Of a DNA stretch of 36,442 nucleotides, positions 34,140-36,442 are shown piece by piece; positions within the stretch are counted from its first letter, which is position 1, and every line of letters begins with the position of its first letter. Below the pieces are notes generated by a model. The model was not told where the DNA came from. It was given only the letters and a program-made list of their open reading frames with translations, and did no database searches. The stretch covers positions 1 to 36,442 of the forward strand of contig NZ_JAFKIC010000160.1 of NCBI RefSeq assembly GCF_017306585.1. The letters run 5' to 3'. The translations under genes were made by a program, and so were the position numbers. This DNA comes from Mesorhizobium sp. (GTDB lineage Bacteria > Pseudomonadota > Alphaproteobacteria > Rhizobiales > Rhizobiaceae).

Positions 34140-34391
34140 ATGGCTCTCTACATCAAGGATCCCCGGGTCGACGATCTGGCCGAGCAAGTCCGCATCAGCC
34201 TTGGCGCGCGCACGAAGACCGACGCCGTCCGGGCGGCTTTGCAGCATGAGCTGGAGCGGGCTTCCAGCAGAATTCCTTTGCGCGAGAAGCTGGCCGATCT
34301 GCGCGCGCGGGCGCGCAAGCAATTAGGCCCGCCGGTTGTAGGCGTCGATATGAAGAAGTTGATGGACGATCTGTGGGAGGAGGGGGAGTGA
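34140..34391 (+). CDS. vapB: VapB-type antitoxin
   Basis: This 83-residue protein has the VapB (PSK-type) pattern: an N-terminal DNA-binding segment (MALYIKDPRVDDLAEQVRISLGARTKTDAVRAALQHELERA) and a C-terminal acidic tail (DMKKLMDDLWEEGE) that would occupy the toxin active site. It neutralises VapC and represses its own promoter. Its TGA overlaps the vapC GTG start (GTGA, 34388-34391). Start ATG 34140 directly follows the double operator. Confidence 0.9.
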   Translation: MALYIKDPRVDDLAEQVRISLGARTKTDAVRAALQHELERASSRIPLREKLADLRARARKQLGPPVVGVDMKKLMDDLWEEGE

Positions 34392-34816
34392 GCTTTGTCG
34401 ATGCCTCGGTCATTGTCGCGATCCTCAACGAGGAACCGGGCTTCGAGGAACTGGAGAAGCGGCTCGGCGAGGCAGGCCGCCAATTCTATGTGTCGCCCCT
34501 GGTGCGCTTCGAAGCGGTCGCGGCCCTTGTGCGCCTGCGGCTTGTCGCGACGGAACACAAGGCCGATCGCGCCACGCTGATCGCTGATGCCCGCGAACTG
34601 GTTGACGGGTTCTTCCAGGCATTGAAGGCACGGGAAATCGCCCTGGACCACGGCATCGGTATCGGAGCGCTCGATGCGATGGCGAGCTATGGCAAGATGT
34701 CAGGACATGCAGCACAACTGAACCTGGGAGACTGTTTCGCCTATGCTGCGGCAACCGCCCATCGCTTGTCCCTGATCTACAGGGGCAGCGATTTCGCCCA
34801 CACCGATCTGGCGTAG
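34388..34816 (+). CDS. vapC: VapC-type PIN-domain ribonuclease toxin
   Basis: This 142-residue PIN-domain nuclease probably cuts a specific RNA, such as tRNA. Catalytic acidic residues are all present: D5 (SFVDASVIVAIL), E42 (LVRFEAVAAL), D115 (LNLGDCFAYAAA) and D134 (YRGSDFAHTDLA). The start is GTG 34388, overlapping the vapB stop and preceded by GGAGGGGG in the vapB end. Production is coupled to the antitoxin. The pair lies between the RNA helicase and asd and has no other partners. Confidence 0.93.
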   Translation: MSFVDASVIVAILNEEPGFEELEKRLGEAGRQFYVSPLVRFEAVAALVRLRLVATEHKADRATLIADARELVDGFFQALKAREIALDHGIGIGALDAMASYGKMSGHAAQLNLGDCFAYAAATAHRLSLIYRGSDFAHTDLA

Positions 34817-34861
34817 CGGGCACCAACGGGCGATTGACTCCTGCCGCAAACCGCGTAAAAG

Positions 34862-34885
34862 CCCGCTTCGAACGGGATCGTTTTT
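34862..34885 (+). terminator. Weak terminator after vapC
   Basis: CCCG (34862-34865) and CGGG (34873-34876) form a short stem followed by ATCG and five T residues (34881-34885). The stem is short, so efficiency is doubtful. Confidence 0.35.
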
Positions 34886-34989
34886 CGATGCGCGGCCTCT
34901 TGATGGCTCTTCTTGCATTCGATGCCCCCAGCCTCAATGCGAACCATTGGGCCGGGCGCTCCGACGCGTCCTCTCGTTCCAGCAAAACC

Positions 34990-35022
34990 ATGGCCAAGAA
35001 AACCACCACCAAAACGGTGTGA
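34990..35022 (+). CDS. Candidate attenuation leader peptide MAKKTTTKTV upstream of asd
   Basis: A 10-codon frame (ATG GCC AAG AAA ACC ACC ACC AAA ACG GTG TGA) encodes three Lys and four Thr. Its first codons pair with CTTGGCC just past the stop to form an RNA stem. Lys and Thr are end products of the pathway that Asd feeds, and Thr/Lys-rich leaders are the classical sign of ribosome-mediated attenuation. The weakness is that no ribosome site is evident before ATG 34990. The frame is open further upstream (ATG 34888, giving a 44-residue peptide with the same end), which would serve equally. Translation is not proven. Confidence 0.5.
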   Translation: MAKKTTTKTV

Positions 35023-35093
35023 TTCCCTTGGCCTAACCACCCTCTCCCGGGTCCGGCCCGGGGGACGAAACCCGCATGAGGCCGGCGGGTTTT
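34992..35093 (+). promoter_or_regulatory. Candidate transcription attenuator in the asd leader
   Basis: Three hairpins can form in a row. Hairpin 1 joins GGCCAAG (34992-34998) to CTTGGCC (35027-35033) around the Lys/Thr codons. Hairpin 2 is 35044-35064 (eight pairs including a CCCGGG-TCCGG-CCCGGG core). Hairpin 3 is a terminator: AAACCCGC (35068-35075) with GCGGGTTT (35085-35092), ending in TTTT. Competing pairs exist: GGCCT (35030-35034) with AGGCC (35079-35083), and CCGGCC (35053-35058) with GGCCGG (35080-35085). A ribosome stalled on the Lys/Thr codons would cover arm 1 and free arm 2. The mechanism is inferred from these complementarities. Confidence 0.5.
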
Positions 35094-35129
35094 CTCCAAC
35101 AACCAAGCGGAGAGGGACAGGAGATCTCT

Positions 35130-36164
35130 ATGAGTTTCAAGGTTGCGGTAGTCGGCGCCACGGGCAATGTGGGCCGCGAAATGCTGAACATTCTGGACGA
35201 GCGCGGCTTTCCGGTCAGCGAAGTGGTGGCGTTGGCGTCGCGGCGCAGCCAGGGCACCGAAGTGTCCTTCGGTGACCGCACGCTGAAGGTCAGGGCGCTC
35301 GACAGCTACGACTTTTCCGACACCGATATCTGTGTCATGTCGGCTGGCGGCAACGTCTCCAAGGAATGGTCGCCGAAGATCGGCAAGCAGGGCTGCGTTG
35401 TCATCGATAACTCGTCGGCCTTCCGCTACGACCCTGACGTGCCGCTGATCGTGCCGGAGGTGAACCCGGATGCGGTCTCGACGTTCACGCGCAAGAACAT
35501 CATCGCCAATCCGAACTGTTCGACGGCCCAGCTCGTCGTGGCGCTGAAGCCGCTGCACGATGTCGCCACCATCAAGCGCGTCGTCGTCGCCACCTATCAG
35601 TCGGTATCGGGCGCCGGCAAGGAAGGCATGGACGAGCTCTTTACCCAGACGCGCGCCGTGTTCGTCGCCGACTCGGTCGACGTCAAGAAGTTCACCAAGC
35701 GCATCGCCTTCAACGTCATCCCGCATATCGACGTCTTCCTCGATGACGGCTTCACCAAGGAAGAGTGGAAGATGGTCGCCGAGACCAAGAAGATGCTCGA
35801 CCCCAAGATCAAGCTGACGGCGACCTGCGTGCGCGTGCCGGTGTTCATCGGCCATTCGGAAGCGGTCAACATCGAGTTCGAGAAGCCGATCACCGCCGAC
35901 GAGGCGCGCGAGATACTGCGCGAGGCTCCCGGCTGCCAGGTCTTGGACAAGCGCGAGGACGGCGGCTACATCACGCCGCTCGAATCGGCCGGCGAGGACG
36001 CCACATTCATCTCGCGCATCCGCGAGGATTCGACCGTCGACAACGGCCTGTCGATGTGGGTCGTCTCCGACAATCTGCGCAAGGGCGCGGCGCTCAACGC
36101 GGTGCAGATCGCCGAACTGCTTATCGAGCGCGGCCTGATCCAGCCGAAGAAGAAGGCGGCCTGA
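35130..36164 (+). CDS. asd: Aspartate-semialdehyde dehydrogenase
   Basis: Asd reduces aspartyl phosphate to aspartate semialdehyde with NADPH, the branch point to lysine (and cell-wall diaminopimelate), threonine and methionine. It is 344 residues, full length. The N-terminal Rossmann motif is KVAVVGATGNVGREML; C130 in IIANPNCSTAQL is the catalytic cysteine; QSVSGAGKEGMDEL and RVPVFIGHSEAVNIEF carry substrate and acid-base residues; C-terminal VVSDNLRKGAALNAVQIAE is typical. ATG 35130 follows AGGAG at six bases; an in-frame extension upstream is not conserved-looking. The leader before it holds a candidate attenuator. After the gene, 36165-36442 contains no coding sequence I can support. Confidence 0.97.
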   Translation: MSFKVAVVGATGNVGREMLNILDERGFPVSEVVALASRRSQGTEVSFGDRTLKVRALDSYDFSDTDICVMSAGGNVSKEWSPKIGKQGCVVIDNSSAFRYDPDVPLIVPEVNPDAVSTFTRKNIIANPNCSTAQLVVALKPLHDVATIKRVVVATYQSVSGAGKEGMDELFTQTRAVFVADSVDVKKFTKRIAFNVIPHIDVFLDDGFTKEEWKMVAETKKMLDPKIKLTATCVRVPVFIGHSEAVNIEFEKPITADEAREILREAPGCQVLDKREDGGYITPLESAGEDATFISRIREDSTVDNGLSMWVVSDNLRKGAALNAVQIAELLIERGLIQPKKKAA

Positions 36165-36345
36165 CGGCTGTCTGTCTAGCGCTCACGGGCCGTATCGCCG
36201 CTGCCGCGGCTGGCCCTCCGCGAGGGCGCCGGACGACCGGCGGCCTGCGGTCGCGGGCTCGGCCTTCGGCCGGGGTTCTTCCTTCTCCCCGTTTACGGCA
36301 GGGCAATCGCATATGGATTCTTGCGAAGGGGACCCCCACCCTAAC

Positions 36346-36366
36346 CCTCCCCACAAGGGGGAGGGA
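36346..36366. repeat. Short palindromic repeat (CCCTCCCC-ACAA-GGGGGAGGG)
   Basis: CCCTCCCC (36346-36353), loop ACAA and GGGGGAGGG (36358-36366) form a hairpin in a context CCCCCACCCTAACCC...GGGAAC. This arrangement is familiar as a widely dispersed intergenic repeat in alphaproteobacteria; I recall it but cannot check copies. The rest of the 36165-36442 spacer is GC-rich and shows no gene; it could also hold the asd terminator. Confidence 0.6.
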
Positions 36367-36442
36367 ACGCTGCCGCGCGCGCCCTATCCATCTTCATGTT
36401 GAGGATCGAAACCTCAGTACTGGCCGCAATCAGCGCCGACCA

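Follow-up and report, generated by a model that had tools for sequence, protein, structure and literature searches.

The asd gene, encoding aspartate-semialdehyde dehydrogenase, is preceded in a Mesorhizobium sp. contig by an open reading frame that is rich in Lys and Thr codons at its 3′ end. The leader is larger than first described, and its wide conservation among relatives is real. Our main reading, to which we give a probability of about 0.7, is that of a ribosome-sensed regulatory leader of asd. The new elements are this wide conservation, the anatomy of the leader and an apparent general lack of an intrinsic terminator; one member of the leader had been suggested before. We refer to the whole stretch of DNA analysed (36,442 nucleotides) as the window; the named loci closest to it, judged by Asd, are those of Mesorhizobium (98% Asd identity). 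Coordinates are collected in Table 1.

Table 1. Features of the asd leader region in the window
Feature	Position	Strand	Description or basis
TTGACT	34834..34839	+	Promoter-like (-35) element for the leader transcript of asd; family comparison
TAAAAG	34856..34861	+	Possible -10-like element; weak, judged visually from the sequence
Leader ORF, 44 aa	34888..35022	+	Predicted translation MRGLLMALLAFDAPSLNANHWAGRSDASSRSSKTMAKKTTTKTV; ATG 34888 to TGA 35020–35022; Lys/Thr-rich 3′ end
10-codon frame MAKKTTTKTV	34990..35022	+	3′ end of the 44-codon leader ORF; ATG 34990 not conserved
P0	35004..35019	+	Hairpin inside the last codons; CACC 35004–35007 with GGTG 35016–35019
P4	35040..35116	+	CCCTCTCC 35040–35047 with GGAGAGGG 35109–35116; closes P2 and P3 ahead of the asd ribosome site
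P2	35046..35062	+	CCCGGG/CCCGGG hairpin; clade B pairing counts
P3	35068..35093	+	AAACCCGC/GCGGGTTT hairpin with a short run of T behind it; in the genus, weak resemblance to a terminator
AGGAGA	35119..35124	+	asd Shine-Dalgarno-like sequence
asd	35130..36164	+	Aspartate-semialdehyde dehydrogenase; TIGR01296 472.8 bits (cut-off 324.2); PF01118, PF02774

The leader reading frame and its conservation

The initial annotation had centred on the 10-codon frame MAKKTTTKTV. This frame is indeed present, its stop lying 107 bases ahead of the asd ATG, but the start assigned to it was rejected: many relatives carry ACG, AAG or another codon at that position. The frame stays open further upstream as far as ATG 34888, which gives the 44-codon ORF. 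Of 168 distinct family leaders, 164 have a start codon (ATG, GTG or TTG) at 30–47 codons, and ORF lengths in the family are mostly 38–46 codons. This answers the doubt expressed earlier, that the short frame lacks a clear ribosome site: translation probably begins elsewhere.

We scored conservation by a fixed rule, according to which a stop codon lies 30–300 nt before asd, an in-frame start is present, and at least six of the last 14 codons specify Lys or Thr. A total of 329 asd loci were fetched: 30, 29, 27 and 3 new loci from samples of 61, 151, 160 and 115 genomes (genus, family, order and class, respectively; upstream DNA was taken from part of these genomes), the 80 best-matching named loci, and chosen regions, mostly of higher identity (60 family, 60 order, 40 class). 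After dropping three loci with an unrecognised asd start (L167, L199, L237), two from genomes already counted (L145, L287), those with less than 250 nt of sequence ahead of asd, and duplicates identical over these 250 nt, 303 were counted. The tail was found in 222 of these 303 regions, and since the regions were chosen and lean to nearer relatives, the fractions hold for them and not for whole taxa. By group, the tail was present in 31/31 loci of the genus, 68/77 of the family, 70/70 further named loci, 49/83 of other families and 4/42 of other orders, and was thus absent by the rule from 34/83 and 38/42 loci of the last two groups. The same rule was passed by 1/303 reverse complements and 16/3030 dinucleotide shuffles. 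Comparison of asd upstream regions from relatives, a check of the kind suggested in the initial annotation, bore out the conservation of the Lys/Thr-rich tail.

Both amino acids recur in the tails. Among distinct tails that passed the rule, Lys is present in 96/96 from the family and 45/46 from other families, and Thr in 96/96 and 46/46, counts to which the rule itself contributes in part. The string KTTTKTV followed by a stop occurs once per genome, beside asd, in 17 of 25 genomes of the genus; it was found in 0/16 genomes of other families, where variants occur instead, and the reversed control pattern in 0/41 genomes.

Several loci outside this picture deserve a comment. Several of the nine family misses have short Thr/Ile/Lys leaders such as MSALTFTKTTIII. 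Very short asd leaders of about 11–13 codons with Thr and Lys (MITRSPIKTII is another example) are seen at L193, L213, L217 and L225, three of which also carry Ile runs; this suggests that in one lineage isoleucine also contributes to the signal. In one other family of the order, L155, L163 and L166 start asd with GTG and have no leader by the rule. Lys/Thr-rich short frames ahead of asd in other orders of the class (L300, L311, L316, L325) may reflect ancient origin or convergence. A crude motif that we take to mark leuB was found 5′ of asd in 0/9 non-carriers of the family, 3/34 of the order and 20/38 of the class, a count made without a control, and so asd may sit in an operon in part of the other orders.

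The tail is conserved in the manner of a coding sequence. In a set of 79 distinct tails from the family, variability is highest at the third position in every one of the last eight codons, and all 79 retain the stop (TGA in 76, TAA in 3). Raw leaders often differ in length by codon-sized steps (for example, GGCCAAGAAAACC and GGCCAAAACC). The N-terminal part varies among lineages, and the Lys/Thr tail is common to them. The last codons also contain the P0 hairpin, whose outer and inner pairs join third positions of four tail codons. Both of these wobble pairs are complementary in 60/79 distinct family tails, whereas 1000 shuffles averaged 34.2 and did not exceed 47; the count is inflated by relatedness and reflects few independent changes (CACC/GGTG, GACC/GGTC and GACG/CGTC).

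One probable member of this group has been detected experimentally. Translation of SEP5 in S. meliloti was demonstrated by Ribo-seq and Western blotting (Hadjeras et al. 2023, PMC10117765), and the portion of that paper covered here describes SEP5 as a small ORF, carrying six Thr and three Lys codons towards the 3′ end, in the 5′ UTR of an ‘aspartate dehydrogenase’ gene; SEP5 is considered there to be possibly a leader peptide and conserved only in Sinorhizobium. We take the gene so named to be asd, and SEP5 to be a member of the same leader, by way of the paper's description and the leader of Sinorhizobium sojae (MGPILASIAQPILPAHAAGRVRLYSLASKTTAKTTTKTV; from a genome with a stretch of 6000 bases 100% identical to a S. 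sojae plasmid), whose last 14 codons likewise include six for Thr and three for Lys. In contrast to a Sinorhizobium-only distribution, the asd leader occurs across the sampled family as defined by GTDB and in 49 of the 83 other-family loci; RNA structure, a promoter or a family-wide comparison do not appear in the covered portion of the SEP5 account (PMC10117765). The view of the initial annotation that no case had been described for asd in rhizobia was thus nearly right, the exception being this 2023 suggestion. A literature search that covered few subscription journals, and many of its sources in part, returned no description of an asd leader besides SEP5; in the text covered, ‘semialdehyde’ is absent from the main text of a 2005 paper on alphaproteobacterial RNA motifs (PMC1273637), and a Caulobacter Ribo-seq paper (PMC4117421) names the trpS and ilv leaders.

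The recovery of SPA-tagged SEP5 from the soluble fraction of S. meliloti, reported in the covered part of PMC10117765, would fit a functional small protein to which the RNA structure is unrelated. We consider this very improbable, given that the N-terminal part is lineage-variable while the Lys/Thr tail is shared, and that this tail is of low complexity and adjoins asd.

The leader lies behind a promoter-like site. In the window, TTGACT is located 54 nt 5′ of ATG 34888. When distinct family leaders having an ATG at 30–46 codons were considered (n = 146), TTGAC was found 40–70 nt 5′ of the leader ATG in 133 of them versus 137/7300 mononucleotide shuffles; a purine-rich triplet (AGG, GGA or GAG) stands at -16 to -4 in 130/146 of the same leaders, counted without a control. 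Some Sinorhizobium- and Rhizobium-type leaders have TAAGAG at a position like that of TAAAAG. A strict sigma-70 scan of 34500–35400 gave no promoter match. As to the surroundings, 17 bases separate TTGACT from the end of a VapBC-like gene pair that precedes it on the + strand (34140–34391 and 34373–34816; Rv0623-like antitoxin, PF07704, and PIN domain, PF01850). On the other side, 3′ of asd, positions 36165–36400 hold a strongly palindromic GC-rich stretch and CCCTCCCCACAAGGGGGAGGG-type sequence that resemble intergenic repeats; visual inspection of L009 showed comparable DNA next to asd.

RNA helices between the leader stop and asd

The RNA from 34980 to 35130 is predicted to fold more stably than expected (z = -3.15; 0/200 shuffles equally stable). 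As claimed in the initial annotation, the CCCGGG hairpin and the AAACCCGC/GCGGGTTT stem with TTTT at 35090–35093 are all present in the window. We additionally propose P4, a helix that would close P2 and P3 and whose inner two pairs use bases also engaged in P2.

A consensus fold of the complete family set (84 rows) by RNAalifold reached only -3.1 kcal/mol, and clade alignments were therefore used instead. Clade B comprises Mesorhizobium, Brucella, Phyllobacterium and their kin (55 rows; six divergent rows were omitted from the alignment and two more before the pairing counts) and was compared with 300 shuffles. For P4, 393/431 cells are canonical (shuffle maximum 389), with 10 two-sided changes (maximum 7). 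P2 has 300/327 canonical cells (maximum 299) and 4 two-sided changes (maximum 4), and P3, scored as ACCCGC:GCGGGT, 294/322 (maximum 292) and 9 (maximum 8). In clade A (21 rows) P2 and P0 are invariant; P4 pairs in 84/126 cells, equal to the shuffle maximum of 84, probably through alignment shifts, and is not counted as support. By these comparisons, support for helices P2, P3 and P4 ahead of the asd ribosome site is modest.

Other pairings proposed initially fared less well. Complementarity of GGCCAAG (34992–34998) with CTTGGCC (35027–35033), here called P1, is present and the helix can form, but it lacks covariation support: GGCCAA/TTGGCC is canonical in 171/321 cells (shuffle maximum 178), which constitutes weak counter-evidence as the 5′ strand drifts in the alignment. 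The competing GGCC pairings can likewise form in the window but lack covariation support and do not exceed shuffles. In clade B, pairing 2:3 is canonical in 410/484 cells (maximum 411) and pairing 2:P3 loop in 277/309 (maximum 278). In clade A, 183/184 cells of pairing 2:3 pair (21 rows) with almost no variation, and so this count is no test of the pairing.

For wider comparisons we used non-redundant sets: of 222 leaders, the 214 with a stop 85–160 nt before asd were reduced to 95 less than 85% alike, of which 53 belong to the Rhizobiaceae and 38 to other families (four from other orders were omitted). A closing helix of at least six pairs with at least two hairpins inside is predicted before asd in 42/53 Rhizobiaceae leaders and 30/38 others, as compared with 631/2120 and 471/1520 shuffles. 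The stability of the post-stop RNA exceeds that of shuffles to a modest degree only (mean z = -1.28 and -1.68, respectively), and in 5/53 and 6/38 leaders this RNA lies below all 40 shuffles. In 19 of the 30 folds shown P4 ends 7–23 nt from the asd ATG, which argues that the Shine-Dalgarno sequence is not simply buried by P4.

A conserved multi-helix structure directly before asd could also be that of a metabolite riboswitch, for example for lysine, formed by P2, P3 and P4. We regard this as the least probable of the explanations considered. A search of the window against Rfam gave no match at the gathering score, and at E up to 1 the region 34800–35200 gave two matches, far under their cut-offs and outside P2–P4; in addition, loops and linkers differ between clades when compared by eye.

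Terminator-like hairpins and the trpE control

The stem of P3 in the window is followed by a T run and then by TCTCC, an arrangement compatible with a classical transcription attenuator, in which a stalled ribosome would favour a GGCC antiterminator and so prevent formation of a P3 terminator. We called a hairpin a U-tract terminator when 5 or more of the 8 bases after the stem were T, and used at least 4 T of 8 as a weaker test. By the weaker test, hairpins were found in 26/30 leaders of the genus, in 12/53 Rhizobiaceae leaders (shuffles 50/1060) and in 2/38 others (shuffles 29/760). By the stricter one the numbers fall to 0/30 in the genus, 1/53 (shuffles 17/1060) and 0/38 (shuffles 8/760). 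Among all asd leaders, 9/222 have at least 5 T, including those of Phyllobacterium (L106) and the Brucella group (L109, L111, L112). Hence some lineages may use termination as the readout. U-tract terminator-like hairpins are also seen at L036, L183 and L247, and two of the leaders from other orders, L316 and L325, pass the test too.

The same code was applied to trpE of the family (30 fetched loci from 41 genomes). A Trp-rich leader was found in 30/30 and a U-tract terminator in 29/30 (shuffles 15/600), in regions longer than those of asd (137–188 versus 90–150 nt). The method therefore sees a real attenuator, and the asd leaders are mostly without that kind of terminator. The U-tract is missing in 90/91 non-redundant and 213/222 of all asd leaders. 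We conclude that an intrinsic terminator is, for the most part, absent by sequence from the asd leaders of rhizobia and their relatives; Mesorhizobium may have a weak terminator, and a few lineages a better one. A mutually exclusive antiterminator did not emerge either, pairings 2:3 and 2:P3 loop being at the shuffle level in a non-exhaustive search and P1 within the shuffle range as well. Set against 29/30 for trpE, these counts make the classical attenuator unlikely. Thus, of the Lys/Thr-sensing attenuator first proposed ahead of asd, the conserved, frame-preserved leader behind a promoter-like site is supported, while switching at an intrinsic terminator is not generally supported.

Proposed regulation and related systems

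In the mechanism that we propose, a promoter at about 34834 would start the leader mRNA, whose first ORF ends in the run of Lys and Thr codons. When charged Lys- or Thr-tRNA is scarce, the ribosome would stall on the tail codons and open P0, altering the folding or use of P2, P3 and the closing helix P4; the altered downstream RNA would presumably allow more asd to be made. When both amino acids are plentiful, the ribosome would finish and leave, and the structure beside the asd ribosome site would keep asd low. The sensing half of this scheme, stalling on a Lys/Thr leader peptide, appears well supported by the anatomy of the leader and by what is known of leader peptides.

As for the readout, control of asd translation initiation seems to us the likeliest, at close to, though short of, an even chance; the position of P4 before the asd ribosome site favours it. 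Folding at equilibrium with the ribosome imposed as a constraint gave no switch and hardly altered the accessibility of the asd Shine-Dalgarno sequence, which in Rhizobiaceae was 0.416 free, 0.416 and 0.435 stalled and 0.452 with the ribosome at the stop, and in the others 0.507, 0.496 and 0.532, and 0.553. Since equilibrium folding cannot capture a co-transcriptional choice, we treat this outcome as negative and not as a refutation. We tried and rejected a pairing of the post-stop segment with the asd ribosome site, as own combinations were no better than swapped ones (688/1325 and 539/1050); pairing of the P4 window with the ribosome site did somewhat better (709/1325 and 651/1050). Control windows at ‘-100..-60’ were set aside because they could overlap the query.

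The main rival to translational control is Rho-dependent attenuation, in which a C-rich stretch after the stop would load Rho once the leader ribosome leaves, and a stalled ribosome or a changed RNA fold would block it. In the window, the stretch between the leader stop and P2 is rich in C and poor in G, an intrinsic terminator is not generally conserved, and Rho has been proposed as the readout for terminator-less cys leaders of mycobacteria (PMC1262725, in the part covered). Yet the C-rich stretch extends for only about 25 nt before strong hairpins, and a ribosome positioned at the tail codons would shield very little of it. We place Rho second and consider it improbable. In third place, and unlikely, is a readout by weak intrinsic termination at P3 in Mesorhizobium and a few further lineages. 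Taken as a whole, a leader peptide that operates order-wide, senses Lys and Thr jointly and acts on P2–P3–P4 as an asd switch with a mostly non-terminator readout is a tentative reading, somewhat below an even chance.

Terminators are not obvious in some leaders of Actinobacteria as well. According to the part of the 2005 study in BMC Microbiol covered here (PMC1262725), cys-operon leaders and the LEU element before leuA have no obvious terminator, and Rho, or pairing with the Shine-Dalgarno box, is proposed for them; in the LEU element it is the leucine codon run itself that pairs with that box. As described there, these leaders resemble the asd leader in having a regulatory-codon peptide and no obvious terminator; they differ in phylum, genes, amino acids and RNA structure.

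Parallels are also found in two other systems. The attenuator of trpE in Rhizobiaceae (trpL, rnTrpL) belongs to the same organisms and also relies on a leader peptide with regulatory codons, but 29/30 loci have a U-tract terminator, whereas the asd leaders are mostly without one. The thrL leader of E. coli combines codons for Thr and Ile with an intrinsic terminator ahead of thrABC. Both thrL and the asd leader are rich in codons of regulated amino acids, Thr among them, and precede genes of the aspartate family; the asd leader differs in its Lys and Thr codons and, in most cases, by the lack of a U-tract terminator.

The product of asd feeds the synthesis of diaminopimelate and lysine, threonine, methionine and isoleucine. 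Lysine is usually regulated by riboswitches and proteins, and control through leader-peptide codons is unusual for this amino acid. The family-wide comparison provides a ready set of natural leader variants, and the missing terminator, set against the trpE control from the same family, turns the readout into a testable question. If the leader does answer to charged Lys- and Thr-tRNA, rhizobia would match the shared asd step to two of its end products.
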